Assembly: GCA_030068145.1 (NCBI GenBank)
Contig: JAPJBO010000007.1
Location: 248,001-312,000, forward strand
From: Diplonema papillatum
Taxonomy: Eukaryota; Euglenozoa; Diplonemea; Diplonemida; Diplonemidae
Length of the DNA stretch: 64,000 nucleotides
Direction: 5' to 3'
Part shown: piece by piece, positions 7,716 through 37,824 of the stretch
Layout: every line of letters begins with the position of its first letter
Position numbering within the stretch: position 1 is the stretch's first letter
Program-made: the position numbers and the translations under genes
Notes under the pieces: generated by a model
Seen by the model: only the letters and a program-made list of their open reading frames with translations
Told to the model about the DNA's origin: nothing
Database searches by the model: none

Positions 7716-7756
7716 GGGACTGGGAGAAAAAGTATCACACGAACTAATCCATCAAA

Positions 7757-9616
7757 ATGTCTGCACCTCCAAGTGGTGGTCCTGGGCAACGCAACACCTC
7801 CAACGAGGCAGTGCGGCCAACGCAGACCGGGACGGAGGCCCCATGGCAGTGGGTGCCAGCGAAAAGGAGCCGGCAGGCTGCAGAGCTGCGGGACGAAGAC
7901 TGGGATGTCCCAGTCGTCAACGTGCAGGAGCTGCGGGACGGTGACGCAGCCGGAGTGGCCATCGCAAGCCGCTCGGAGGCCAAGAAGGCGATCGGCGACG
8001 GCAAGAAACACGCAGCGCGTGCGGTAGTCGTGCTGGGCGCGGTGCAGGAACTGGCGGGCCACGCAGGACAGACCTGCCCTATCGTCGTCAGGCGCGGAAC
8101 ACGCATCGAGACGACGACCGGCACGGTATTCCAAATGGGAGAGAAGGAAGTCGGTTCCAAGCTGACGTGGAAGCGCGTGGCAATGCCAGGCGGCGATCAA
8201 GTTCAATCATCATCTCACATCGGCAGCCGTCAAACATCAACACATTTCGGCGGCCTTCAGAGGCTGTCGATATGCGTCCCTCGCCAGCACACGACGGCAA
8301 GCGAGTGGGGGGAGGCAACAACGAACCTGAGGGCCTACCTCGGGCAGTTTGCCTCGGAGCTGGGCGTTAGCGAAGGCGACGTCCTGATCACGGGAGTGGA
8401 GACGCGAGGCAGGGCCGAGGACCCGGCGCGCTCTCTCGGCGCGCTGATGCGCGTCCCACAGGAACAGGCGAAAAAGCTGGAAGCCGCATCGGGCCACCGC
8501 GGAGTTTTCGTCGTCCCGAAACTGGACGCAGGAACCGTGGTCTGGCTGACAGCGGGCACAACGCTGGCAGAGGCGAAGGACCTGGCGAACAGTCTGCCCA
8601 CGCAGGTGCAGAGACTGGCCGTCAACAGACGGGGACTCGGGCTCCGGGTGACGGCAGGAGCTGAAGAAGAGGTGCGATCCGCAGTGGGAGAGAGGTCAGC
8701 ACCGAGGGTAAGTGGGAAAACGTGGGATGTGTTCGGTTTCCCGAAGCAGACGACGGCCGCCCAAGTCGAAGGGTTTCTGAGGAAGGCGGGATGGGAAGGG
8801 GTGACCATGATCAAGGTCATCCCAAAGAGAGGCAAGGCGCTCGCTGTCGTCAGGGGCCCAGATCCGCCGGCGTGGGTCTTCAGTATCACGGATTCGGATC
8901 TGCGCATCGACGTGTCCACAGCCCGACCGATTGCCGAGGCAGAGCAGAGGTGGGTACAGACACCCGCCCAGGAGAAGAGGCAGGATCCCGCAGAGGCGGG
9001 CTCAGCTAGGGAGCGGGAAAGGTACACATGGGCCGAGTTCCTGGCGTGTTACGGGAAAAAGCGAGGGCGAGCACTCTGGCGAGAATCGACCGGACAGCCA
9101 TCCGCAGAGGAGAGTCGACCAAGCGGCAGTAAAGGTGGCAAAGAACGAAAGGAAAACGGTACCGAGAAGGGGGGCAAAGGTGGGAAAGGCGGTGGCGGCG
9201 GGAGTCCAGCAGCCTGGACGGCACACCCAGCCGCCCCCGAGCAAAACCATGACGCGACAGAGATGGCACAGCTACGTGCGCAGCTCAGCGAGGCCCTGCA
9301 GCGGATTGAAGCGTTGTCGAGACAGCTGGAGGAAGTGCAGGCCAAGCAGGTGGGGGTACGAAAGTCGCCATCGCCGCGACGCGAGCCAAGCATGGACAAC
9401 GATGAGGACAAGAAGAAGAAGAAACCCGCAGATGCCAAGCAGGAGGGCCGGAAGACAGGCACCAAGAAAAGGGCGAGGTCCGGCACCGAGTCGGCGTCAC
9501 GAGAGCGAAGTGAGACGAAACCCCCGGCAAAGATGCACAGCGCCGCCTCCACCTCGGCAAAGAAGCCGGACAGACAATCGACGCTGGTCGGTTTCATGTC
9601 GTCGGCTGCCAAGTGA
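7757..9616 (+). CDS. LINE ORF1 protein, RNA-binding-like, PIP-box-like C-terminus
   Basis: A 619-residue protein just upstream of the reverse-transcriptase ORF, the usual position of a LINE ORF1 that coats element RNA. Residues about 320-372 (start KTWDVFGFPKQT) resemble an RRM-like fold of the kind found in ORF1 proteins. A Gly/Lys-rich linker spans about 450-490, a coiled coil about 501-535 (start EMAQLRAQLSEAL), then a Lys/Arg/Ser-rich tail that could bind nucleic acid. The last residues read RQSTLVGFMSSAAK; Q607, L610, F613 and M614 match the spacing of a PCNA-interacting peptide, with basic residues just before. Start codon: first ATG after the AC tract, context CAAAATG. The N-terminal 250 residues match nothing I recognise. 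The RRM and PIP calls are inference from pattern. Confidence 0.85.
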   Translation: MSAPPSGGPGQRNTSNEAVRPTQTGTEAPWQWVPAKRSRQAAELRDEDWDVPVVNVQELRDGDAAGVAIASRSEAKKAIGDGKKHAARAVVVLGAVQELAGHAGQTCPIVVRRGTRIETTTGTVFQMGEKEVGSKLTWKRVAMPGGDQVQSSSHIGSRQTSTHFGGLQRLSICVPRQHTTASEWGEATTNLRAYLGQFASELGVSEGDVLITGVETRGRAEDPARSLGALMRVPQEQAKKLEAASGHRGVFVVPKLDAGTVVWLTAGTTLAEAKDLANSLPTQVQRLAVNRRGLGLRVTAGAEEEVRSAVGERSAPRVSGKTWDVFGFPKQTTAAQVEGFLRKAGWEGVTMIKVIPKRGKALAVVRGPDPPAWVFSITDSDLRIDVSTARPIAEAEQRWVQTPAQEKRQDPAEAGSARERERYTWAEFLACYGKKRGRALWRESTGQPSAEESRPSGSKGGKERKENGTEKGGKGGKGGGGGSPAAWTAHPAAPEQNHDATEMAQLRAQLSEALQRIEALSRQLEEVQAKQVGVRKSPSPRREPSMDNDEDKKKKKPADAKQEGRKTGTKKRARSGTESASRERSETKPPAKMHSAASTSAKKPDRQSTLVGFMSSAAK

Positions 9617-9628
9617 AGGTGGGCAGAA

Positions 9629-12600
9629 ATGGTCGGAGGCGGGGATGTGGAGAAGGAAGGTGATCTCAGATGGATCGAGCGGATGGCACGAGACATGGGT
9701 GCGAGACTAACCCGGGTCTCGGGGGACGGTAATTGCCAATTTACGGCGATTGCGGAAAGCTACGGCGGGATAAACGCACGCGCTCTGCGGGAAAGGGTGG
9801 TTCGCAACATAGAAGCGAATACAGCGAGATACTGGGACCACCTCGGAGGTGAGGAAATGGCGCAATATTTGAGGAGGATGGGAACCAACCGCACCTTCGG
9901 GGACGAGCTGACCCTGCACGCGGCGGCGCAAGTCCTGCATTGCAACATTTGGGTAGTGAACGCAAGCCACCGTGACACAGTAAAGCGGTGGAGGTCAGAC
10001 GGGGCGGGCCGAACAATAGTGGTGACATACATGCCACTGCACTACGACTGGCTCCAACTCCCGGTACAAAGCGAATATGTATTGGAACAAGCAGAAGCCA
10101 ATGCGATACCGATCGCACGGCTACTACTAGTTGCGCCCCGACAAGTTGGTGCAGCGCAACCGGACCCACCGCGACCAAGCCGGCGCCGTAAGAGCCCGAC
10201 CGCCGGGCCGCAACGGCAGCAACACGAAACACAGAGCCCCGGACGAGCGGAGGAACAGCCGAAAGGTAACAGGCCAGTGAATCCACAAGCTCGGCCGCGA
10301 GCGGTATCCGTTGACGCGCAATGTCGGCAGCAAAGGACGGCGGAAGGCGGAAATGGACAGTTAGATGAGGTGGCAGGCTTACTGGCGGCGAAGCGTGTGC
10401 TGATAGAGGAAGACGGAAATTGCCAGTTTGCAGCGCTTGTAAGAGGAAGCAAGTTGAGTCTCGCGGCGGCGTCGTTGCGACAGAAAGTAACGTGGCAGCT
10501 CCGAAGTCTGCCACCTGCAGCTCTCCCCCTCGAAGGCCAGACGCGCTCCGAATACCTATACAACATCGCGCAGAACGGCGCGCACGGGGATCACACCACG
10601 CTACAGGCAGCCGCGGAGGTACTGAAGGCAAGTATATGGGTCCTCTCAACAAGGGACCTAACGCAACTACGGCGAGAGGGGAGGGCGGAGAACCCATCAC
10701 GGGTAATCGTGCTGACCCACCGCACACAACATTATGACGCGCTCAGACTTCCCTACCTAGCTTTGAGGTTTCTGGCTTCCTTAGCCCCCGAGACAACCCA
10801 AGCAAGTGTGGAGGAGCTGACACTCGCTGTCATGCCTCGACCAGCAGCCGGGGTGGACAAACCGCGCAAAGCGAGCACGATTGTCCTCGCCACGGTGAAT
10901 CTGGGTTCCCTGAACTCAAGGTGTCGCGCGGTGGCAGCGCTACCGGCGGACATAGTAGCCTGTCAAGAGACGCGGGTGGGCCCGGAGGGTAAAAGAACGT
11001 GTGAAATGTACCTAGGAGCATACGGCAAGCAATGCTTCTGGGGGGAAGACGTCCCGATAGTCGTCGGCGCGAACGGGATAGGGCAGCGCGCGCCAGGCGG
11101 CACAGCCGTCATAACACGCAGCAGCATGGTAGCGTCGAAGGCGCACCCAAAGACAGCGCTGGAGACAAGATTAGCGGAAAGCACTCGGGTGGCCCACGCC
11201 GTGGTAGCAACGGGGAATGCCCGCTCGGTATTGCACGTAATTTCGGTGTACGCACAAGTAGGAAAGGAGTCAGGTGTTGTCAGGGAGCGGGAACGGTTCC
11301 TGTCTGACGTATTTGAAATGGCGGCGGGGCTCGGGCAGGTGCCGGTAGCCATCGTGGGGGACTTCAACACAACGATAGAAGAAAGTCTCTCCCTAATGAG
11401 TGCCTGCCGAGGTGGGTGGACGGACGCGGCGGCAGCGGCTGCAACGAATGCGGCACAAGAGCCGCCGCCAACCTGCTGGGCAGGAGCGGCAGGCACGAGG
11501 ATAGACATGTGTTTCCTGAACGCAGGTGCATCGCAGGCACTCGTCGAGGTTCGAACTGCAGACCCGCAACAATACGAGATACCGACCCACTGTCCACTGT
11601 TCGTAACTCTCGACATGCGGACAGCGTCAATTCCGAAGCGGACGCATTGGATTCCCGCCCCCTTTCCGAAGAAGGCGCCGCTTAAGAACCCGAGGGAAGA
11701 GCAGGGTGCCCTTAAAGCGGCGCTGAGCCAGAGGCGCTCGGTGGACGGGGCGGAAGCGGTTCTGCGTAACGCCTCCGAAGTGGCAGAGACGTACCTATAT
11801 GAAATGCACAAGCACGGCCTCCAGAAAAGTGAAGCGAAGGCCTGCAAGGGCAGGGCAGAAGGGCACTCGGTACGAGAAGCCCATGTTTCAGCCCGGCAGG
11901 CGGTCTCAGCGAGGGGAGCAGGAGATAGGACCACCAGACAACGGGACAAAGTGCTTGGAATGCTACGGACGGTGATTGTCGAGGCAAGCCACAGGCTGAG
12001 CGAGGGGCAGCCAGGAGAGATGACGTTGGCAGAGCGCAATGCGAGAAGTGCGCTACAGCGGAAAGGACCGAGAGAGGACCTGTCGCGGCATCTGTCCGCG
12101 GCCCACGGAGAAAGCGGAGGCGACGAGTTGGAGCGCCTGATGAAAGCTGTGGAGGCGTTGGAAGGATCTCAACGCGAGGCCGTCGCCGCGTTGAAGCAGC
12201 AACGAACAAGAAGGTGGAAAGACCGGATGCAGATGGCCTGGAACAGCTCCGACAAAGGCGACGTGTACCGGTTTCTTGCGGGGAGCCGAGAAAGCCCATC
12301 GATCTACCTGCGGCGGCGAGACGGAACTTTAACGGCGTGTCCAAAGGAGATCGACGATCTGTTGAGGGGACCCGAAGCATGGGGAGGCATTTTTCAGAAA
12401 TACACGAGCATCCGGGAACCGCAGTGGGAAACCTTCAAGGCACAATACGCGAGGTATCTCCCGGCCCCACAGCGAATGGACTGCAAGGCAATCAGCGCGG
12501 CAGATGTGAAGGCGGCGCTTAAGAAGATGAAGAGGAACTCTTCACCCGGACTGCACGCGTGGAGAGTTTTCGAACTGCAGCAACTGCCCACGGAGATCCT

Positions 12601-15600
12601 GCAACTCATGGCTGAGGCGATGAATGCGGTCGAGACCGAAGGGCGGTGGCCAGAGCAATTGATGCACGCGATCCTGCACCTATTGCCGAAGCCAGGGAGC
12701 ACGGGCGACCCCTTGTCGCAGCGACCAATAACGATCACACCGGTGCTGTATAGAGTATGGGCAGCAATACGGGCCCGGGAGGCGTTGGAATGGATGGATA
12801 ACGTTGTGCCGAGCGGCCTCCACGGATGCCGGAAGAAGCACGGGACGGACGACCTGGTCTGGCACCTGGCAGCTCTCATCGAGGAAGCACACCTGACAGG
12901 AGAACCATTGTACGGCCTGGCCCTCGATTTTAAGAAGTGTTTCGACACGGTGCCGATCGATATCGCCTTCCGGCTAGCAGAGGAGCTGGGGTTTGACCCA
13001 ACCGTGTTGCGAACCTTGCGCGCAGCATACTCCGGCATGCAGCGCCACTTCCGCATGGGACCCGTGGTGGGAGAAGGCTTCGTGCCAACAAACGGGATCA
13101 TGCAGGGATGCCCGTTGAGCGTGGTGCTGATAAACGTGCTCATAAGCGTCTGGATGCGGCACGTAGCGGACATAGAAGCAGCGATTCCGCTATCATATGT
13201 GGATGATGTGTACGCGTTGCTGAAGAGCCTCGCGCAGTTGCAAGAAGCGGCAGATCGATCGGGGACGTTCGCGGGGCTAACCGGAATGAAAGTGTGCACG
13301 CAGTTGAAGTCCCTGTGGTTCACAACAGCACGGGACGCCCCGGAGGAAATCTCCTACACGGAAAGTAATGGAGCCGGAGAGGCAGTTGCTCGACCGGAGA
13401 CGATAGCAAAGCAAACGACGTTTGACGTACTGGGTGTTATGCTGACAACGGAGCAGGTACCACCAAGCAAGCCGCTCCCGCAGTCCAAGCGCGTGGCGGA
13501 ACGAACCAAGATGGTCGACACCGTGTTAAAGAGAGCGGCCTGCCTCCCGCTCCCCGCCGGTGCGCGCGACCTCGCAGTTAGCATGACGGCGGGGGCGAAA
13601 CGGTATTACGGGGCAGCGGTGACGACGATCGGGAAGCAGGAAGTCGAACGCTTGAGACGGAAGGTTACCGAGTCAGTGTGGACGGGGCCGCCGCGACGTG
13701 CGCAGGAAGCTGTGCTGCACGTGCTGCACCACGGGCACAGGCTAGACCCGGGCGTTGTACCGGCTTACAGACGGATCACGACCTGGGCCGAACAGGTCAA
13801 GAAGTGGGGATACGCACAGACAATGTCTGAAACAGCATGGGTACACAAAGAAGAGCTCGCAAAGCTGCATGGGCCCTTTGCCTTCATGAAAGAGGCGCTG
13901 GACGGCATTCGATGGCGATGGGTGACACCAACGAGCATTGCGTATATAAATGAAGTTGGGGAGGGTGTTGTTCACGACGCGGCGCAGGAAGGAAGCACAC
14001 GCCTCCTACAGCACGACCTAAGACATGCATTACGCCTGCGCGAGATGGTTCGCCTTGCGGCGAGGAGAGGAAATGACTTTGGAGGAGTTGAAAGCGGGGT
14101 GGATTTTGCGGCAACCAGGAGGCTATTAGAGAAGCAGGATTCATCTCTCACTGCCTACCAAGCCGGGTTGCTGAGGTCCGTGATCGCAGGAGCCACGCCG
14201 GTCACCGGGCGGACGGGGCTGAGCGAGAGAGGGTGCCCGTATTGCGACACGCAGGAGCGCGAGACGGTCGAACACCTATTCTGGAAGTGCCCGGCCTGGG
14301 AGCAGATACGCGCAAAGAACGGGGATCTGAATGCTGCACAGCTAAGTTGGCCGCCGTGCTTGCGATTGTGCGGAGTAGCTCCAGCAAACACGGACCTTCT
14401 GCCCAGGGAACGGAAAGAGCTACTCCAACTGATGGAGTCGCTACACCTCTTCTTCGTGGCGGTCCTAACGGCACGCCAAGGGGCGGATGAGATGCTGGAC
14501 AGGTCCACACGACACCATCGGACGCTGGAATATCCACGACAATGGAGACCCACAGAACCACACGAGTTGGTGGTGCCCGACATCGCGCCCACAGCGGTGT
14601 CCGCCAAGTGGAAGTACGGTCCGGAGATGTGGATGGCGTTCACTGACTGGCTGCGAGGCCTGAAGTGGGCGCCGCCTGGGCATGAGTTAGGGGTGAGTTT
14701 CATGGAGCTCGCAGTAGACTTCGAGCTGCGCACCGGTTGTCGGCTCCCGAAGCTCAAGAACAGGTATTACTCGGCGGTGCCGCTGCCCCCAGCGCACAAG
14801 ACCACCACAGCGCGGCAGGTGCTGCCAGAAGGTGCGACAAGGGGCATAGAAGTGTACTTCGACGGAGGAGCTAGGGCAAATGGAACTGCATTCGCCGTGG
14901 CGGGCGCAGGAGCGGTCCTTTACAGAGGGGGAGTAAAGGACTCGCAAATAGTGCTCCCCCTGCCAAGTGTGCGCAGCAACAACGTAGCCGAGTATGAGGG
15001 AATGATAGCGGGGCTGCAACTTTTGGAAGAGGCAGAAGGGACGGAAGGAGAACAATGCACCGTCCGCGGTGACTCGGCCCTAATTATTGGGCAAACCAAT
15101 CGAGAGATAGCCTGTTCGGAAGACCTGAAACCATTTTTAACGCGAGCGATCGCGAAAATGGTAGCCCTGCGGCAGCGGCTCACGCTGCGAGTAGAGCACG
15201 TGAAGCGCGAGGAGAACGTGGACGCCGATGCGTTGAGCAACGCAGCGATGGACATTGTGCAGAGACAGCGCCCGACGCGAACGCAGCAGGAGGCAAATCT
15301 CGCAGTCTTTCGGGCCTCCGGACTCGGAAAAGCGATGAGTCTGAAAGAGTTAGGTAATGCCTACAAGAAGGTAACAGGACGGCCGTGGTTTTACGGCCAC
15401 GAATGTGCGACCACAATCCTGACCTCCGTCGGGGGAACAATTGTCAGGGGGGCTTCGCGGCGTGCGCAACTCTCGGAGGCGACTGACACGGTCATCCTCG
15501 GCATCCGAGAACACGTACGGACGCTAAGGCCGGCGCGGACTGAGACCACATTGTTCCCTCAACATCTAGAATGGGCAGCAACCTATGTCCCAGAGAAAGC

Positions 15601-16009
15601 ATACCCCGCACGATGGGCGCAAGGGAAGACCGACTGGAAGGCAAGAGCCGAGATGGTAGACAAGGTCCCGGGTGCAGGAGCGTGCAGAGGGGCGCGACCG
15701 AAGAAGGCCCCGAAGGACGCGGTGAACACGGCTCGCCCAGGCGAAATATGCGCACTACATAGGAAGCCCCGATGCAAGGGATGTGCGAAGAAGCGCCTGC
15801 CAGCGGAGACCTGTTGCCGGTATAAACAGCACCATCATGATGGAGATGGCCTAAGGCCGCGGGTGCAATTCTGCACAGCCCACAGACTGGAGCGCTGCGG
15901 CGAGTGTGAAGCTGACAATGAAGGAATCGCGAGGTGCTGTACAAGACACCACCCCCAGTTGAACACGGACCCCCACTCGCAACCTGCGGGAGCATCGGCG
16001 GTTACTTGA
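9629..16009 (+). CDS. LINE ORF2 polyprotein: OTU-OTU-endonuclease-RT-RNase H
   Basis: A 2126-residue replication protein. OTU 1 has DGNCQF with Cys36 and HYD with His138. OTU 2 repeats the same signature with Cys265 and His368. Both keep the Asp-Gly-Asn-Cys loop and the late His, so both may be active. An AP-endonuclease-like domain follows (about 417-660: QET, GDFN, TRIDMCFLN, THCP). The reverse transcriptase has motif A LALDFKKCFDTV (Asp1100), motif B QGCPLS and motif C YVDD (1190-1193). A zinc motif CPYC...EHLFWKC is at about 1536-1556. RNase H spans about 1740-1875 (Asp1745 in YFDGG, NNVAEYEG, GDSALI, then HVKREENVDADALS). A Cys/His-rich tail lies at about 2040-2105. Proteases in LINE polyproteins are known, but two tandem OTU modules at the N-terminus are unusual. 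Confidence 0.95.
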   Translation: MVGGGDVEKEGDLRWIERMARDMGARLTRVSGDGNCQFTAIAESYGGINARALRERVVRNIEANTARYWDHLGGEEMAQYLRRMGTNRTFGDELTLHAAAQVLHCNIWVVNASHRDTVKRWRSDGAGRTIVVTYMPLHYDWLQLPVQSEYVLEQAEANAIPIARLLLVAPRQVGAAQPDPPRPSRRRKSPTAGPQRQQHETQSPGRAEEQPKGNRPVNPQARPRAVSVDAQCRQQRTAEGGNGQLDEVAGLLAAKRVLIEEDGNCQFAALVRGSKLSLAAASLRQKVTWQLRSLPPAALPLEGQTRSEYLYNIAQNGAHGDHTTLQAAAEVLKASIWVLSTRDLTQLRREGRAENPSRVIVLTHRTQHYDALRLPYLALRFLASLAPETTQASVEELTLAVMPRPAAGVDKPRKASTIVLATVNLGSLNSRCRAVAALPADIVACQETRVGPEGKRTCEMYLGAYGKQCFWGEDVPIVVGANGIGQRAPGGTAVITRSSMVASKAHPKTALETRLAESTRVAHAVVATGNARSVLHVISVYAQVGKESGVVRERERFLSDVFEMAAGLGQVPVAIVGDFNTTIEESLSLMSACRGGWTDAAAAAATNAAQEPPPTCWAGAAGTRIDMCFLNAGASQALVEVRTADPQQYEIPTHCPLFVTLDMRTASIPKRTHWIPAPFPKKAPLKNPREEQGALKAALSQRRSVDGAEAVLRNASEVAETYLYEMHKHGLQKSEAKACKGRAEGHSVREAHVSARQAVSARGAGDRTTRQRDKVLGMLRTVIVEASHRLSEGQPGEMTLAERNARSALQRKGPREDLSRHLSAAHGESGGDELERLMKAVEALEGSQREAVAALKQQRTRRWKDRMQMAWNSSDKGDVYRFLAGSRESPSIYLRRRDGTLTACPKEIDDLLRGPEAWGGIFQKYTSIREPQWETFKAQYARYLPAPQRMDCKAISAADVKAALKKMKRNSSPGLHAWRVFELQQLPTEILQLMAEAMNAVETEGRWPEQLMHAILHLLPKPGSTGDPLSQRPITITPVLYRVWAAIRAREALEWMDNVVPSGLHGCRKKHGTDDLVWHLAALIEEAHLTGEPLYGLALDFKKCFDTVPIDIAFRLAEELGFDPTVLRTLRAAYSGMQRHFRMGPVVGEGFVPTNGIMQGCPLSVVLINVLISVWMRHVADIEAAIPLSYVDDVYALLKSLAQLQEAADRSGTFAGLTGMKVCTQLKSLWFTTARDAPEEISYTESNGAGEAVARPETIAKQTTFDVLGVMLTTEQVPPSKPLPQSKRVAERTKMVDTVLKRAACLPLPAGARDLAVSMTAGAKRYYGAAVTTIGKQEVERLRRKVTESVWTGPPRRAQEAVLHVLHHGHRLDPGVVPAYRRITTWAEQVKKWGYAQTMSETAWVHKEELAKLHGPFAFMKEALDGIRWRWVTPTSIAYINEVGEGVVHDAAQEGSTRLLQHDLRHALRLREMVRLAARRGNDFGGVESGVDFAATRRLLEKQDSSLTAYQAGLLRSVIAGATPVTGRTGLSERGCPYCDTQERETVEHLFWKCPAWEQIRAKNGDLNAAQLSWPPCLRLCGVAPANTDLLPRERKELLQLMESLHLFFVAVLTARQGADEMLDRSTRHHRTLEYPRQWRPTEPHELVVPDIAPTAVSAKWKYGPEMWMAFTDWLRGLKWAPPGHELGVSFMELAVDFELRTGCRLPKLKNRYYSAVPLPPAHKTTTARQVLPEGATRGIEVYFDGGARANGTAFAVAGAGAVLYRGGVKDSQIVLPLPSVRSNNVAEYEGMIAGLQLLEEAEGTEGEQCTVRGDSALIIGQTNREIACSEDLKPFLTRAIAKMVALRQRLTLRVEHVKREENVDADALSNAAMDIVQRQRPTRTQQEANLAVFRASGLGKAMSLKELGNAYKKVTGRPWFYGHECATTILTSVGGTIVRGASRRAQLSEATDTVILGIREHVRTLRPARTETTLFPQHLEWAATYVPEKAYPARWAQGKTDWKARAEMVDKVPGAGACRGARPKKAPKDAVNTARPGEICALHRKPRCKGCAKKRLPAETCCRYKQHHHDGDGLRPRVQFCTAHRLERCGECEADNEGIARCCTRHHPQLNTDPHSQPAGASAVT

Positions 16010-16062
16010 AACTGAAGGAGTCGTGGACGCCTCTCGCACAGGGAGGCACCACGTGAAAACAG

Positions 16063-16145
16063 GTCTACAACACACACACACACAAAACGCACCGAAATAT
16101 AAGTGACAAACGAAGAACACACACACACACACACACACACACGCA
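16063..16145. repeat. AC microsatellites after LINE ORF2
   Basis: Two AC tracts (about 16,066-16,083 and 16,118-16,142) separated by unique sequence, then CT-rich DNA to about 16,185. They mirror the AC tract before ORF1. Confidence 0.85.
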
Positions 16146-16582
16146 CTCACACACGCATACCCAAACACTCTCTCTTTCTCTCTCGGCCGCATCTTGCTGG
16201 ATGCCACACAGCTAATATATGATGCTTTGACGACGTTGGTTGATCGCCGAACGAGACGAGAGTACGTTCTTCTCCTTTCTTTCAACGGAAGGCCTGCCTT
16301 CTCGTCCGTGGGTATATTGTGGGTAAGGAACGCGTGTGGTCGTTTTTTTCACGGGGTTCGTTAAGAGGCGTTGATACATATAGAGTGTTTTGTATTTTGT
16401 TTTTCCTCTTTCCCATTTATCTTTTTCTTATTTGCGTACCAACGCCCTCTTCGTCCTTCATTTTGACCGAACCCCGTCCCCTCCTCTGGTACTGACTCGT
16501 TGCGGCAGAGTTTTTCTAGCTGAGTCTTGCAAGCCGGGAGGGGGGTTGTTTTGAGTTGGTTCTTTTTGTTGTTGAGTTTTTG

Positions 16583-16583
<1 letters not shown>
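16146..16583. other. intergenic DNA before first Ubl gene
   Basis: No gene is seen. The stretch probably holds the LINE 3' end and the 5' flank of the Ubl gene. It has a CT run near 16,170-16,185 and T-rich DNA from about 16,390. Confidence 0.5.
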
Positions 16584-16617
<34 letters not shown>

Positions 16618-16620
16618 AGG
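16584..16620 (+). promoter_or_regulatory. polypyrimidine tract and AG, probable splice acceptor
   Basis: 32 uninterrupted T's (16,584-16,615) are followed at once by GCAGG, with the AG at 16,618-16,619. The first downstream ATG, 16,643, starts the Ubl protein 23 bp later. This is the textbook shape of a 3' splice acceptor. Because no upstream exon with a start is visible and other genes here show similar arrangements, a spliced-leader acceptor is plausible. A cis intron in the 5' UTR is the alternative. Confidence 0.55.
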
Positions 16621-16642
16621 TGGTTTTACTGCCGGTCGGACA

Positions 16643-19261
16643 ATGTGCAGCCTTCAGAGCCCCGTGCAAAATATGGACGATGACAGCATCAACTCCGACG
16701 GTGCCCTCTCCGATGCACCAGCGGGGGCGAAGTTCAGCATTTGCATCCAGACCCTGTCGATGGGGCTGCGGTCGCTCGCGATCCCGGTGACGCTTTCGAC
16801 GACGGTCGGAGAGATTAAGGCCGTGATCCAGACGAGGGACCCAGCCGCTCCTCCGCCGGACCGGCAGCGCCTCACCTACAATTGCAAGGAGCTGCACGAC
16901 GACAACACGAGCCTCATCTCGCTGAACCCGCCGCCGAAGGACGGCTCGAAGTTTTCGATGGCGTTCGAGCTCAAAATAGACCAGGAGGAAGTCTGGGAGG
17001 TCAGCTGCATGCATTTCCACGGGTACTGCGAGACCCTCTGGGCGTTGCCGTCGTGGACGGTCGGCGAAGTGATCGGCGCGCTGCGCGGGAGGGACGGCGG
17101 CGAGTTAAAGTGGACCGGCGGCCGGTTCTCGTTGGCGCAGAAGGACCTGCTCGAAGCGGACGTCCTGGCGGAGGTTGAGGGGATGGAGTCGGGGAAAACC
17201 CTCCACTTCTTCCCGACCGGGAAATACGTCAACAACAACGCTTCCCCGCAGCTGGAGTGCGGAGGGGACATGTCGCTGCTGGAGATGTCCGACCAGAACA
17301 ACACTGTGTACACCTACCCTGACGTCAACTACTCGTCGATGGACCGAGCACAGGCAGCGACGCCGTCTCCGCTGACGTCGCCTTCCAGCCGGCTGTATTT
17401 CGACCTGCGGTTCTTCGAGGGAGGCGCGCAGCTCAACCTCAAGCTCTGCTGCGGGAACTCGAAAACGGTCCTCGAGCTGAAGACCAAGGCCGCCGCCGCC
17501 CTCGAGCGCGACCACGGGCGGTGCGTGCGGACGTCGCTCATGAAGCTGGTCCTCAACGCCCAGGTCCTCCCCGACGCGGAAATCCTGAAGAACATCCCCG
17601 TCGGCGACAGGGGGTCCCTCAGCGCCCCGGCGGTGGTCCAAGCGTACGTCGTGCAAACCAGCGATCCGGGCGCGGTTTCGCAGTACTGCACGATGGAAGA
17701 GTCGGACGTCGAAGACGAGCCGGAAGATGCGACGCAGTGGTTCGGTCGGGGGTCGGGGTTGAAGGCGTGCCAGCCGCATGCTGACGTCGTGCTGTTGGTT
17801 GTCGGGATCATCGCAATCATCGTGGGTACGGTGATGCTCGATACGACGTACACCATCGGCGTGTGCAGCTCGGACACGTCCGCGTACCGAAGCGTCACCT
17901 GCGCGCCGTCCAAATCGTACCCGCAGACGTACACGCCGACCATAGCCAGCGTCCCCTACCTCGAAGAGCCGTCGGAGTACCGGCGGCCGTGCCCCACGTG
18001 CGCGTTCATCGCATCGCCGAACAACCTGACTTCGCCGTTCCTCGCGCAGCGGTACTGCACGCAGTCCGACTCGGCGACGGACGCGTCGCTCGCGAGCGTG
18101 ACGCTCTTCATTTCGCCGGACCTGTGCGACGCCATCTGGTCGTCGTCGGCGGTGCCGCAGTTCTTCATCGACGCGACCTTCGACGGCCGCGCGTGGCGCG
18201 ACGCCGACGGGAAGCTGCTGACGATCCCCGCGTTCATGTGGGAACCGGGGCACCCCGCCGCCGGCATGTCGCAGGTTGTGGTCAACCGGAACAGCTGCCG
18301 GCTGGCCACGGTCGGCCCGGAGGCCGTCGGCGGCGCCGCGTGCGAGTTCAAAGCGACACGGCGGGACTGGGAGGAGGGTAAGTGCCTGGGCAGTGTCGTC
18401 GCTGAAACCGCGGTCAGCGAGACGCTTTGCGCGATGAGCTGCTCGGACTGGTGCTACGCGAGCGTGCTGAAGGCGCGGGAGGACCAGTGCACCACGGGGG
18501 CCACGGAGCCGAGCTTCTGCTGCGTGGAGAAGGCGGAGCCGGCGCCGGGGCCGCAGGCGAAAGGCGGCGCGTGGCTGTCCAACAGGAAGGTGTGCGGGTG
18601 TGCCCTGCACCGCGGCACCGTCGACAAAAACATGACGAGCGCCCCGTCCTCCGACGCCCGCGCGAAGTACTTCAGCCCGCAGGCCCGAGTCCTCCACAGG
18701 TCGGCCGCCACCGGCAAGCAGGCCACATACGTCGAACAACCGGGCGTCGACCTGCGGTGGCCGCCCGGAACTGTCAACAAGCTGGTCCCCGACTGCACGT
18801 CCGCGTGCTCGTGCGCGCGATTTTGCAAGGAGCAGCCCATGTGTAGCGCCTTCGTTTACGACTCGAAGCAGTTCTTGTGCGCGCTGTGGGGCGCCTCTTG
18901 GCAGACGGAGCCCGGCGCCGAGTCACCCCCGGCGGAGAAGTCTCTTTTCGTGGAGTCGATGGTGAGCTCCCACCTGTGCTCGGTCTCGTTCGGGACCAGC
19001 TACGGCGCGGAGGCGGCGTGCCTGCAAAGAGCTTGGGACTTCCTGGCGGCCGACAGTGCTTGCACGGCGTCGGCGTCTTCTTGCTCCGCCGACCCGACGG
19101 AGGCCTCCTTCGGCGCGCTGCCCGTCGTGTTGATTGTCGTCGGCAGTCTCCTCATCTTGTTCTTCTGCATTTGCGTCGTCTCAGCCGTGGCGTCCTACCT
19201 GAGCGAAACGACCCGCAGACCGTCGCCGCCGAGCATCACGTCCCATGAAGATTCTCCGTGA
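16643..19261 (+). CDS. membrane protein with three ubiquitin-like domains and Cys-rich ectodomain (paralog 1)
   Basis: An 872-residue protein with the start placed at the first ATG after the poly-T/AG acceptor; an upstream in-frame ATG would translate the T run as polyphenylalanine. Ubl 1 (about 25-110) has the ubiquitin-like DRQRLTYNCKELHDD strand-loop. Ubl 2 (about 115-200) and Ubl 3 (about 245-350) are more divergent beta-grasp-like segments. None ends in Gly-Gly before a cut site, so they are probably interaction modules. Membrane helix 1 lies at about 380-402 (VVLLVVGIIAIIVGTVML). A roughly 420-residue Cys-rich region follows, ending in a PAN/apple-like stretch (CARFCKEQPMCSAFVY). Membrane helix 2 lies at about 827-850, then a short tail. 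With no signal peptide, the Ubl domains should face the cytosol and the Cys-rich part the outside or lumen. The same architecture recurs at 35,215-37,824. Confidence 0.85.
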   Translation: MCSLQSPVQNMDDDSINSDGALSDAPAGAKFSICIQTLSMGLRSLAIPVTLSTTVGEIKAVIQTRDPAAPPPDRQRLTYNCKELHDDNTSLISLNPPPKDGSKFSMAFELKIDQEEVWEVSCMHFHGYCETLWALPSWTVGEVIGALRGRDGGELKWTGGRFSLAQKDLLEADVLAEVEGMESGKTLHFFPTGKYVNNNASPQLECGGDMSLLEMSDQNNTVYTYPDVNYSSMDRAQAATPSPLTSPSSRLYFDLRFFEGGAQLNLKLCCGNSKTVLELKTKAAAALERDHGRCVRTSLMKLVLNAQVLPDAEILKNIPVGDRGSLSAPAVVQAYVVQTSDPGAVSQYCTMEESDVEDEPEDATQWFGRGSGLKACQPHADVVLLVVGIIAIIVGTVMLDTTYTIGVCSSDTSAYRSVTCAPSKSYPQTYTPTIASVPYLEEPSEYRRPCPTCAFIASPNNLTSPFLAQRYCTQSDSATDASLASVTLFISPDLCDAIWSSSAVPQFFIDATFDGRAWRDADGKLLTIPAFMWEPGHPAAGMSQVVVNRNSCRLATVGPEAVGGAACEFKATRRDWEEGKCLGSVVAETAVSETLCAMSCSDWCYASVLKAREDQCTTGATEPSFCCVEKAEPAPGPQAKGGAWLSNRKVCGCALHRGTVDKNMTSAPSSDARAKYFSPQARVLHRSAATGKQATYVEQPGVDLRWPPGTVNKLVPDCTSACSCARFCKEQPMCSAFVYDSKQFLCALWGASWQTEPGAESPPAEKSLFVESMVSSHLCSVSFGTSYGAEAACLQRAWDFLAADSACTASASSCSADPTEASFGALPVVLIVVGSLLILFFCICVVSAVASYLSETTRRPSPPSITSHEDSP

Positions 19262-34386: not shown

Positions 34387-35214
34387 ACCGTACGAGCCCC
34401 CAAGCAAAACCCCCGACGACCGAACGAAGTGACACACCAACAGAGTGTCATTGCTCGGTGAGCGCTAACCGTTGCGCACATGCGAGTTCGCTGGGTGGGG
34501 GGGACCACCCATGCATGGCCGACATTTAACCCTTAATGTGGCTTCACACATAAAGTCGCTAGCCTGATTTCCAACGAGCCACTTCCCCAGGTGGTCAGAA
34601 CGCGAGCGCCGCAGTTTCCACTGTGACACGCGCGATTCTGTAGAAAGCAAGAGTAACCAACTTCCAGTGCTCGCCGTTCGACGAAGATAAAAACGGTTGT
34701 TCGGGACCTTGCGCAATGAACAGCTGTCAAAAAGGTTTTGTGCCCGACAGAGAATCTTTACTGCACCAGCCTGGACAAACAACAGAAAGGACCAGCAAGA
34801 CACAAGACTGAGACGCACATCGTCGGAAACCTAGGAATAGTTGAGTTGCAGCTCTTGACAAAGACAGATGGAAAAAAGAAGGTGTTTTTATTCTTCGCTT
34901 TTTCTCACGAACGGGGGGGTCGGTCCTGTTTTCGGCTTTGTAGGTTCTCCCGACTCCCCAAATCGTGGTTAGCACAAACTCAAGAGGTCTGGTAGAGGAC
35001 TATTCCCTGCAGTATTAGCATACGTTCAAAAAGAAAGGCCCACCCAACCGACAGAGATCCCTGCAAACGCTTTTACCCGCTCCAACCGGCAACTGGCGAC
35101 GAGGAACACAACACAAATATCGCCAGAATTTCCCGGCTTCTGGAAATTCGAAACAGTCTCGAAAATCGCGCGAACACAGGGGGGAGGGAGGTGGGGAGGG
35201 GGCTGGCGGCGACG
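34387..35214. other. intergenic DNA between ankyrin and second Ubl gene
   Basis: No gene is seen. A possible acceptor AG lies in GCGAACACAG (35,169-35,178), 36 bp before the next ATG, but without a long pyrimidine tract. Confidence 0.45.
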
Positions 35215-37824
35215 ATGATCCCCTCGTCCTCTGAGGATGAGAGCTTGAACAGTGGGGACAGCGACGGGTCGAAGTTCGCGGTGAAGGTGGTCACGCTATC
35301 GATGGGGCTGACGTCGTACGAGTTCATGGTGAAGCCGACGACGACGATCCGCGAGCTGCGGAAGCTGCTCGAAGAGGCCGACGGGACCTATGCGTACGCC
35401 CGCCAGCGGGTCACGTACAACAGGCGCGAAGTATCACGGGGCAGCACCGAGATGCAGCACCTCCGGCCGCCCGCGCAAACCGGGTCGAAGTTTTTGATAG
35501 CCCTCGAGTTGGAGCGGTCGAGCCTCGCCGAGAAGTGGAAGATCAGTGTCGTGCACTTCGACACGCCGTCCGAGCAGGAGGCCGTCGTCGTGTCGCCGGA
35601 CCAAACGATGGTCGACGTCCTCGCGGTCCTGAAGCAGAAGGACTCGCACAAGTGGGACAACGGCGTTTTTTGCGTCGCAGACCAGCTCATCGACCAAGCC
35701 ACGCCCCTGCGCAGCCTGCCCGGCATGGGCCCCGGCGCCGAAGTGCAGTTTTCCGGGATCCAGTCGGACGGCGTAGTGGAAGTCGTGATCACGAAGGCGG
35801 GCGCGTTGCACAACGGACAGGTCACCCGGGAGAGGACACGGCTCGCGCTGCTGTCGTTGCCCGGGTCGCTCAGCCGGCTGGGCGGTGGCGACTTCGACAG
35901 CCTGCGGAACCTGAACGACACGAGCGTGCTGGATTCGGCGGGGCCGCCGGCGAACGCCCCTGGCGCCGCCTCCCGCGGCGATGAAAACGGAGTGACGCAC
36001 ATCGAAGCGCGGCTGACCCAGCAGCAAGGATCGGCGGCACCGCCCGGCGGCGCCGCCGCCTGCGTGCGCATCGCGTCGTCGGAGAGCGTCCGCGCCCTGA
36101 AGGCGGCCGTCGAGGAGTCGTTCGCGCGCGGCGGGCGGCGGGTGCCTCGCGCCCGGCAGAAGCTGGTGCACAACTCGCAGATCCGGGAGGACGAAGAAAA
36201 GGTGTCGTCGATCCCCGCCGGCGATGCCGGCACCGCCGCCAACCCGATCATCATCCAGGTCTTCCTGGTCCCCGAAAACGCGCGGCAGGACGCTTCACCC
36301 ACGGCGACCGAGGCGAGCGACGACCCCGGGCGACCGAGGAGCCGCCGGTGCAACGTGGCGAGGTCTTCCGTCGGCCTTGCGGCGTCGGCGATATGCTTCA
36401 CTTGGGCGGTCGGCCTCTGCATCGTCGCGGCGACCACCATGGCAACGCGGGCCGAGAACGGGTACTGCTACATCGTGCCGAGCACGGACATGGTCTGCGC
36501 GCGGCAGCCGTCGGGCGCCTGGGGATACACGCTGAACCACGCGCGGTTCCAACGCGACCCGCCGGTCGCCACGCCGTGCGACTACTGCTCGTACCTGTTG
36601 CCGGGGGCCCCCGCGGCGCCCCCTCGTGCCCACGCGGAGGCCTTTGCGGCGTGCGCGGCGCCCCCGGGGGGTGGCGTGTCCCGCGAGAAGCCGACGCATC
36701 TACCCGTCGTCAGCCGATACATACCGGGCGCGCTGTGCGACCGGATAGCAGAGCGGCCCGGCGCCGCTTTCTGGCTCGACGGCAGGCAGGCCGCGGGAAG
36801 TGACGCGTTCGTGTCGGCCGGCGGGTTGAAGCTCGCCCTACCGGCGTCGCTCTGGGCGGGGGGCGCGCCGCCAGACGCGTCGGGGGACCTGTACCTGACG
36901 GTGGTCTTCGACCCGGCGTCCAACCGCTGCGTCCTCCAGCCCGCATCCTCGGAGCAGGCGGCCGGCAGCGGCGGCGCGTATGCGGTGTGCGCGAGCGATC
37001 CGCTTCGGGTCGAGTACCTGCAGGACGGCCAAATGTGCGAGCCGACGGTGTCGCAGAGCAAAGAGTACAGCACGACCGCGGGGGCCGCCGGCTACGAGGA
37101 GTGCAAGCACTACTGCAACTCGTGGGGCGAGCAGGCGCTCGTGGTGCAAGGCCGGCAGAACGCGTGCCTGGAAGTGCAGCACTCTGCCGCCACGCAGTCC
37201 TGCCGATGCCGGCGAGTCCTCGGCGTGGACGCGGCGTGGGGGACCCGTGTCAATTCGAGCGGGGCTCTGTCGTCGAAGCTGATGTTCCCTCTCGACACGC
37301 GAGAGCGCGTCACCCTGGCCCCGGAGACCACGCGGGACTTCTGGAAGCTTCCCGGGTGGACGTTGGACGGGATCGCCGACATCACGGAGGACAAGGCGAA
37401 CCACACGGCGGCGAGCTGCGTCGAAAAATGCGTCGAATACCGGTCGTGCGAGTCGTTCACGGTGACGGCGGCGGGCGCCTGCTTCCTTTGGTCGTTCACG
37501 CCCGGCGACTGGGGCAAGCTTTCGAGGGCGAGCGGGGGCGCCGACACGTACGCCGCGGCCATCAACGAGCTGTACTGCAACTTCGACACGCAGGCCATCG
37601 TCGCCGCCTCGAAGGCGGAATGCCTGGCGAAGCTGCTCATGCGGCCTGCCACCACGGAGTGCCGCCGCAGGGGGTCGTTTTCCTGCGAGCCCGGGCACGA
37701 ACGCTCGGGATCGACGGGCTACGTCGTCTTCATCTTCGCCGGCATTTGCTTCCTCCTCTCGCTCGCCGCATTCCTGACCGCAATGCCAGCCCGGAAAGTG
37801 TCACAACCAGCAAGCGCAGGTTGA
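35215..37824 (+). CDS. membrane protein with three ubiquitin-like domains and Cys-rich ectodomain (paralog 2)
   Basis: An 869-residue paralog of the 16.6-kb gene with the same order of parts. The start is set at 35,215 (MIPSSSEDESLNSGDSDG), which aligns with the acidic Ser/Asp N-terminus of the paralog; an in-frame ATG at 35,191 adds eight residues. Ubl 1 is at about 20-105 (ARQRVTYNRREVS), Ubl 2 about 110-190 and Ubl 3 about 260-365. Membrane helix 1 is at about 383-408 (AASAICFTWAVGLCIVAATT). The Cys-rich region runs to about 835 and ends in a PAN/apple-like stretch (CVEKCVEYRSCESFTV...CFLWS). Membrane helix 2 is at about 836-858 (VVFIFAGICFLLSLAAFL), then about 11 residues. Shared fixed features (TLSMGL in Ubl 1, SKF before its last strand) support common descent. 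Role unknown; a receptor linking an ectodomain to cytosolic Ubl modules is inference. Confidence 0.85.
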   Translation: MIPSSSEDESLNSGDSDGSKFAVKVVTLSMGLTSYEFMVKPTTTIRELRKLLEEADGTYAYARQRVTYNRREVSRGSTEMQHLRPPAQTGSKFLIALELERSSLAEKWKISVVHFDTPSEQEAVVVSPDQTMVDVLAVLKQKDSHKWDNGVFCVADQLIDQATPLRSLPGMGPGAEVQFSGIQSDGVVEVVITKAGALHNGQVTRERTRLALLSLPGSLSRLGGGDFDSLRNLNDTSVLDSAGPPANAPGAASRGDENGVTHIEARLTQQQGSAAPPGGAAACVRIASSESVRALKAAVEESFARGGRRVPRARQKLVHNSQIREDEEKVSSIPAGDAGTAANPIIIQVFLVPENARQDASPTATEASDDPGRPRSRRCNVARSSVGLAASAICFTWAVGLCIVAATTMATRAENGYCYIVPSTDMVCARQPSGAWGYTLNHARFQRDPPVATPCDYCSYLLPGAPAAPPRAHAEAFAACAAPPGGGVSREKPTHLPVVSRYIPGALCDRIAERPGAAFWLDGRQAAGSDAFVSAGGLKLALPASLWAGGAPPDASGDLYLTVVFDPASNRCVLQPASSEQAAGSGGAYAVCASDPLRVEYLQDGQMCEPTVSQSKEYSTTAGAAGYEECKHYCNSWGEQALVVQGRQNACLEVQHSAATQSCRCRRVLGVDAAWGTRVNSSGALSSKLMFPLDTRERVTLAPETTRDFWKLPGWTLDGIADITEDKANHTAASCVEKCVEYRSCESFTVTAAGACFLWSFTPGDWGKLSRASGGADTYAAAINELYCNFDTQAIVAASKAECLAKLLMRPATTECRRRGSFSCEPGHERSGSTGYVVFIFAGICFLLSLAAFLTAMPARKVSQPASAG

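Follow-up and report, generated by a model that had tools for sequence, protein, structure and literature searches.

The window analysed here, a stretch of 64,000 nucleotides from Diplonema papillatum (G000:C7:248001-312000), contains a whole copy of a LINE in which two OTU peptidase domains precede the endonuclease and the reverse transcriptase. Comparison with related elements from the same genome shows that this tandem is a mosaic: ORF1 and OTU1, the 5' part of one LINE lineage, were placed in front of OTU2, APE and RT from a second lineage. Both domains are maintained by purifying selection, and they lie directly behind a stop codon that is probably read through.

The LINE and its two OTU domains

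The element is flanked by (AC)n microsatellites and spans positions 7716 to 16069 of the window (plus strand, as are all of its features given below), with boundaries read from the sequence. Its 3' end was checked against five further copies and its 5' end against four, the fifth (L013) being 5'-truncated. We named families by the length of ORF2 in amino acids, and this one is F2130. ORF1 (7757 to 9616, in an open frame from 7748 to 9616) encodes 619 amino acids from its Met and matched no Pfam model above that model's own cut-off. It ends at a TGA (9614 to 9616) that is the lone in-frame stop between ORF1 and ORF2, a layout common to the OTU-bearing LINE rows, and is a candidate readthrough stop. 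ORF2 is an open frame of 2130 amino acids plus a TGA (9617 to 16009), in which Pfam models gave the order OTU, OTU, APE endonuclease, reverse transcriptase (RT) and RNase H. The modelled stretches of OTU1 (9641 to 10168; Cys codon 9734–9736, His 10040–10042, Asp 10046–10048) and OTU2 (10328 to 10825; Cys codon 10421–10423, His 10730–10732, Asp 10736–10738) are separated by a fast-evolving linker (10169 to 10327). Downstream are the APE-type endonuclease (10925 to 11539, residues 437–641; PF03372, 39.6 bits) and the RT (12686 to 13438, residues 1024–1274; PF00078, 68.2 bits), both above cut-off. RNase H (14846 to 15241) is above cut-off with PF13456 (29.2 bits) and just below it with PF00075 (24.8 bits, cut-off 25.8), and a zinc-finger-like stretch in the interval between RT and RNase H (14225 to 14302) is below cut-off (PF13966, 15 bits, cut-off 27.5). 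No LTRs were seen by eye at the ends of six F2130 copies, the 3' flanks of which are (AC)-rich. With APE and RT matched and ends without LTRs, F2130 is an APE-type non-LTR retrotransposon (LINE). The order APE-RT-RNase H fits the I group of LINEs, as judged by domain order alone, and no RLE model matched ORF2 in a general Pfam search. Elsewhere in the window, two large frames of similar make-up (16520 to 19261 and 34996 to 37824) each combine a PAN domain with a stretch resembling ubiquitin.

The original prediction was of two OTU cysteine proteases in the translation from a Met at 9629, with DGNC motifs (Cys36 and Cys265) and HYD motifs (His138 and His368), and these residues are where it placed them. 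Each domain on its own exceeded the PF02338 cut-off of 23.3 bits (OTU1, 41.7 bits, E 2e-10; OTU2, 25.9 bits, E 1.5e-5). The single OTU domains of F1999 (23.2 bits) and F1950 (22.3 bits) just miss this cut-off. AlphaFold predicted an OTU fold for both domains (mean pLDDT 88.4 for OTU1 and 89.3 for OTU2), with Cys, His and Asp present in each. The best Foldseek matches in the PDB were DUBA (3tmp) for OTU1 and OTUD2 (4boz) for OTU2, and the best E-values for the two models were 2e-7 and 2.6e-7. When we searched the PDB with a profile of 15 OTU stretches, 13 from LINEs and 2 from Penelope-like elements, OTUD5 ranked first (E 4.7e-14). Profile and predicted fold thus confirm that both domains of F2130 are OTU peptidases. 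By contrast, translation probably does not begin at the Met at 9629, because ORF1 is in the same frame up to the single TGA.

We searched the genome (271 Mb) with the first 458 residues of F2130 ORF2. Copy numbers for F2130 and F2135 are lower bounds because 92 of 1514 candidates were scored. There are at least nine F2130 copies that span the whole query and at least six with a full frame. The sister family F2135, which is 72–73% identical and carries the same tandem OTU arrangement in ORF2, has at least 13 full-coverage copies and at least eight with a 2135-aa frame. Six full-frame F2130 copies differ from one another at 0–11 positions over 6390 nt; the family is therefore young, was recently active and is probably still active. 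Twelve OTU-bearing LINE families were found in the genome, and in two of these the OTU is a tandem under constraint. This count leaves aside F1528 (L024, C1028), a single F1876-like copy in which the APE was lost through an in-frame deletion and the OTU and RT were kept. Another copy, L030, has OTU2 deleted and is frameshifted. In the window copy, differences from the five other full-frame F2130 copies cluster at 15941 to 16038, from ORF2 codon 2109 into the 3' tail, and the 3' end resembles F2135 (96.6% over 204 nt), as if exchanged.

The 3' end of the element ran into an (AC)n or AC-rich repeat in all six F2130 copies shown, in both copies each of F1938 and F1972, and in one copy each of F2135, F1999, F1950, and F1945. 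The 3' ends shown for F1876 (three), F1528 (one), and F1966 (two) ran into no such repeat, and the insertion site of L009 is an AC-containing minisatellite. Judged from these flanks, the F2130 LINE inserts into (AC)n microsatellites. From its distribution over families, albeit in a small sample, target choice seems to follow the APE/RT body and not the 5' module.

Between F2130 and F2135, omega was 0.10 (interval 0.05–0.18) for OTU1, 0.13 (0.07–0.20) for OTU2, and 0.46 (0.21–0.80) for linker residues 176–245; these values are rough because between-family dS is near 1 and a simple counting method was used. Single OTU domains gave 0.08 (F1876 compared with F1528) and, for the OTU2 type, 0.14 (F1950 compared with F1945). 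As this last value is close to the 0.13 of OTU2 in the tandem, pairing shows no evidence of having relaxed the constraint. These data indicate that OTU1 and OTU2 are both under purifying selection between F2130 and F2135. A comparison of dN/dS among F2130 copies was discarded since 0–11 differences in 6390 nt give it no power.

The D, G, and C of D-G-x-C and the H-Y-D motif do not vary among the 13 LINE OTUs aligned; F1972 has the variant DGAC, and F2130 keeps D-G-N-C in both domains. A search with the OTU1-type motif at up to three mismatches returned 68 matches, all with TGC (Cys), including 21 without mismatch that are F2135-like. Forty of the 68 were already at three mismatches, where a Cys change could be missed, and the informative set is therefore 28 of 28. 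The Cys of the F1999 OTU motif was kept in 31 of 31 matches, but this evidence is weak because 30 of them are identical over the motif.

The expectation that both cysteines would be conserved was only partly borne out. It agrees with the selection seen on both domains, but the OTU2 Cys is not invariant. Searching with the F2135 OTU2-Cys motif (at most one mismatch) yielded 23 copies, of which 17 have TGC and 6 have AGC (Ser). This comes near to the loss of the second Cys/His pair that had been named beforehand as a refutation. The second His, whose loss had been considered together with that of the Cys, is retained along with the Asp in four of the six Ser copies, which are all that cover these residues. 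The OTU1 Cys is also retained in four of the six, all that cover OTU1. The six Ser copies share sites that differ from F2135 and thus make up one subfamily. Over the up to 1.4 kb that could be compared, their indels are all private, and there is no in-frame stop in the reference frame and no shared frame break; the frame was therefore apparently open while they spread. At present all six seem to be decayed. Five have lost the frame through private indels, and the sixth (C1559) ends at a contig end with a 490-aa frame, compared with about 1880 aa if ORF2 were intact. This subfamily thus seems to have spread without the normal OTU2 nucleophile. Therefore, either this nucleophile was dispensable at least once, with OTU1 present, or the copies were moved in trans. 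The Ser copies argue against both OTUs being necessary.

Expression of ORF2 and role of the OTU pair

ORF1 and ORF2 are in the same frame with a single stop between them in 13 of the 13 OTU-bearing LINE rows examined. The ORF1 stop is TGA in F2130, F2135, F1876, F1528, F1966, F1938, F1972, F1901, F1909, and F1907, and TAG in F1999, F1950, and F1945. The first in-frame Met of F1999 is residue 157, past the OTU Cys at residue 139. No in-frame Met follows the stop in the 305 residues examined of F1950 or the 296 of F1945, and this AUG-less stretch includes the OTU with an omega of 0.14. Because no AUG lies ahead of the OTU Cys in these three families, stop readthrough is likely. The same-frame single stop and the missing AUGs, taken together, strongly imply readthrough as the best explanation, and with it a gag-pol-like layout with a predicted ORF1-OTU-OTU-APE-RT fusion. 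A non-AUG start for ORF2 is conceivable and less favoured than readthrough. Reassigned stop codons were rejected: with the ORF2 ends lined up by eye, TGA closes ORF2 of F2130, F2135, F1938, and F1999, and TAG that of F1972, F1950, and F1945. A hairpin occurs 8–10 nt 3' of the UAG in F1950 (z -2.35) and in F1945 (z -0.91; here the stretch folded was cut to begin directly after the stop), at L036 582–701 and L047 770–889 (reverse strand). No convincing shared RNA structure was found after the stop in the other five families folded. The stretch from stop to OTU had an omega of 0.72 (0.31–1.60) between F1950 and F1945 and is not clearly constrained.

We propose, with slightly more confidence than doubt, that F2130 is a chimeric LINE expressed as a readthrough fusion and that its OTU domains are mainly deubiquitinases acting in cis, with OTU1 as the standing enzyme and OTU2 partly redundant. 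Readthrough of the ORF1 stop would produce the ORF1-OTU-OTU-APE-RT fusion, and the OTU domains would strip ubiquitin in cis from this protein or from the RNP of the LINE. Ubiquitinated proteins at the target site may be alternative substrates. OTU2 would be an inherited domain with a substrate range of its own, and cutting of the readthrough fusion may be an additional role. A deubiquitinase is favoured over a pure protease because the triad is full and the nearest solved relatives are OTUD1, 2, 3, and 5. It is also favoured because the OTU is C-terminal in Penelope-like elements and in Ginger1 (excerpts of PMC2836005). Deubiquitination in cis therefore seems most likely, ahead of polyprotein processing.

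It is possible, but to us doubtful, that the OTU domains are instead proteases that cut the ORF1-ORF2 readthrough fusion in a tymovirus-like manner. Processing is favoured because the OTU sits directly after the stop, and in all 13 rows examined it is the first recognised domain past it. In F1972 and in 10 of 10 OTU1-type rows, but in none of the three OTU2-only families, the interval from stop to OTU contains a GG stretch (VGGG, AGGG, VGGR, or RGGG). Ubiquitin has the C-terminal end LRGG, which this stretch recalls; in F2130 it lies at 9629 to 9649 of the window and is a conceivable cleavage site. Further points for processing are a 2A-like motif between stop and APE in a LINE that bears AlkB and in which no OTU was recognised, and the precedent of the TYMV OTU (excerpts of PMC5695851). 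Other features argue against it: the Penelope-like OTU of the same genome lies C-terminal to the RT (by eye), the Ginger1 transposase has its OTU at the C-terminal end (excerpts of PMC2836005), and the full triad resembles that of cellular deubiquitinases.

The Penelope-like elements (L025:6198-9899:- and, in both L022 and L023, the first long frame) have their OTU towards the C-terminus (36.6 bits), with H-Y-I and not H-Y-D; their RT motifs were read by eye with no Pfam RT match, and GIY-YIG (21.1 bits) is below cut-off. In the AlkB-bearing LINE (L022:2-4216:- and L023:5811-9899:+), an in-frame TGA is followed by the 2A-like motif DVEQNPGP before the APE. The L022 ORF2 has an AlkB-like 2OG-Fe(II) oxygenase (PF13532, 45.4 bits), and L023 was assigned by eye.

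We give a rather low probability to the idea that these are gag-pol-style LINEs in which exchange of 5' modules between families keeps re-pairing OTU domains, so that in the tandem families one would serve the polyprotein of the element itself and its partner the host ubiquitin system. If this gag-pol-style reading were true, the OTU domains would mature or stabilise a leaky-stop fusion.

Termination-reinitiation, by which an AUG of ORF2 itself would start its translation, has been put forward for L1 of mammals and SART1 of the silkworm (excerpts of PMC5972666) and is an unlikely route here. Apart from this precedent, the idea draws on where the first in-frame Met of ORF2 lies, which is residue 5 in F2130 and F2135 and residue 7 in F1901 (L063). 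Because the AUG is five codons past the stop in F2130 and F2135, an own start is possible in these two families. The first Met is residue 19 in F1909, 25 in F1876, 32 in F1528, 35 in F1907, 46 in F1938, 59 in F1966, and 92 in F1972. Reinitiation is difficult to reconcile with a first AUG beyond the OTU Cys in F1999 and none in the residues examined of F1950 and F1945, or with the shared frame of ORF1 and ORF2 in every row examined.

We regard it as improbable, too, and a little more so, that one or both OTUs are ubiquitin-binding or structural modules for which catalysis is not needed. The spread of the Ser subfamily would fit this idea, but the conservation of D-G-x-C and H-Y-D in all 13 aligned LINE OTUs and of the OTU1-type Cys in all 28 informative matches does not; the F1999 matches point the same way, weakly given their near identity.

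Origin of the tandem

Identity between F2130 and F1876 is 61% in ORF1 and 73% in OTU1, compared with 36% in APE and 40% in RT. The F2130 APE is 46% identical to that of F1938 and 44% to that of F1972, and the RT is 55% and 53% identical, respectively. RNase H is off this mosaic pattern (50.7%, 138 bits, to F1876; 51.4%, 126 bits, to F1938). In F1999, F1950, and F1945 a single OTU2-type OTU, 57–68% identical to F2130 OTU2, follows the ORF1 stop. In the OTU tree, the OTU2 domains of F2130 and F2135 grouped with F1999, F1950, F1945, and F1972 (99/97), and their OTU1 domains with F1876, F1528, and the OTU1 of a copy on C1277 (90/90, internal order not fixed). In the OTU trees F1972 forms a long branch whose position is unsure. 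In the RT tree, F2130 and F2135 were sisters (98/98) with F1999 next (95/92). Clades for tree tests were chosen after the first OTU and RT trees had been inspected. A clade of the four F2130 and F2135 OTUs was rejected (delta lnL 160, AU p 0.0003), as was an RT clade of F2130, F2135, F1876, and F1528 (p 5e-80); a tree with the F1938 OTU beside the F1972 type was weakly rejected (p 0.011). From these trees and identities, the tandem is shown to be the product of joining ORF1 and OTU1 of one LINE lineage upstream of the OTU2-APE-RT of another. The subfunctionalised pair originally suggested, if it had arisen by duplication, would account for two OTUs that share a frame and are spaced by a linker, but in-place duplication followed by divergence is rejected as extremely improbable given that OTU1 and OTU2 fall in separate groups from two LINE OTU lineages, that the four-OTU clade is rejected, and that the C1277 copy shows a joining route.

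This decayed copy (C1277:35250-38600, L041/L061) is an F1901-F1999 chimera that makes another tandem OTU. It is 96.2% identical to F1901 over 1431 columns (ORF1, OTU1) and then 93.1% identical to F1999 over 981 columns (OTU2 and the start of APE), with a 4-nt overlap about 60 nt past the F1999 stop. By its sequence, two sampled families were joined directly here, and the join created a tandem OTU. Identity between F2130 and F2135 per 100 nt is 93–100% over 7780 to 8979 and then 55–84%, lowest in the linker. The ORF1 of F1938 is 83% identical to that of F1966, but its ORF2 shares 63% identity with F1972 and 39% with F1966. Template switching during reverse transcription is a likely route for such joins. 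In L013 (C1168:31700-41600), an F1972 element breaks off within the RT and continues, in frame, into the ORF1 end of an F2130 copy; the 3' end of F2130 is followed by (AC)n, without the remaining F1972 in the stretch seen. L013 is perhaps better explained by a template switch than by nested insertion.

Comparison with known systems

In predicted fold and Cys-His-Asp residues, the F2130 domains are like OTUD5/DUBA, OTUD3, OTUD1, and OTUD2/YOD1. Unlike these cellular enzymes, they are in tandem within a LINE ORF2, and identity is 17–22% (Foldseek). Ubiquitin- or SUMO-system peptidases in transposable elements are known from excerpts on Helentrons, which carry an OTU (PMC4067079), Ginger1, with an OTU at the transposase C-terminus (PMC2836005), and the NeSL and Utopia LINEs, which carry Ulp1 (PMC4640811). 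According to the same excerpts, Helentron and Ginger1 are rolling-circle or cut-and-paste elements and NeSL and Utopia are RLE LINEs, unlike F2130, and the text available on these four contains no tandem OTU.

Dualen may have an extra cysteine protease domain. Dualen/RandI LINEs are like F2130 in combining APE and RNase H, but Dualen has both APE and RLE (excerpts of PMC4640811), whereas no RLE model matched F2130 in Pfam.

In some gag-pol retroviruses and retroelements a leaky stop precedes the protease, and F2130 resembles them in having a protease-like domain directly after an in-frame stop. It also shares the OTU fold with TYMV PRO/DUB, a dual protease and deubiquitinase with a Cys-His dyad that cuts its own polyprotein (excerpts of PMC5695851). 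It differs from TYMV and gag-pol elements in having LINE machinery (APE, RT, and RNase H), a complete OTU triad, and predicted readthrough.

Among the matches listed from CC-licensed literature, no OTU in a LINE, single or tandem, was apparent in the text available, and no LINE expression via readthrough was apparent among the matches listed from that literature. The roles of accessory domains in LINEs are mostly obscure. The 12-family set, with two constrained tandems, one tandem-making join, and one subfamily lacking the second Cys, makes the question of a transposon-borne ubiquitin protease testable and ties it to expression via a leaky stop. Together, these comparisons indicate that OTU domains in other transposons and Ulp1 in LINEs are known, and that, relative to the literature matches listed, the OTU in a LINE, including the tandem of F2130, is apparently new.
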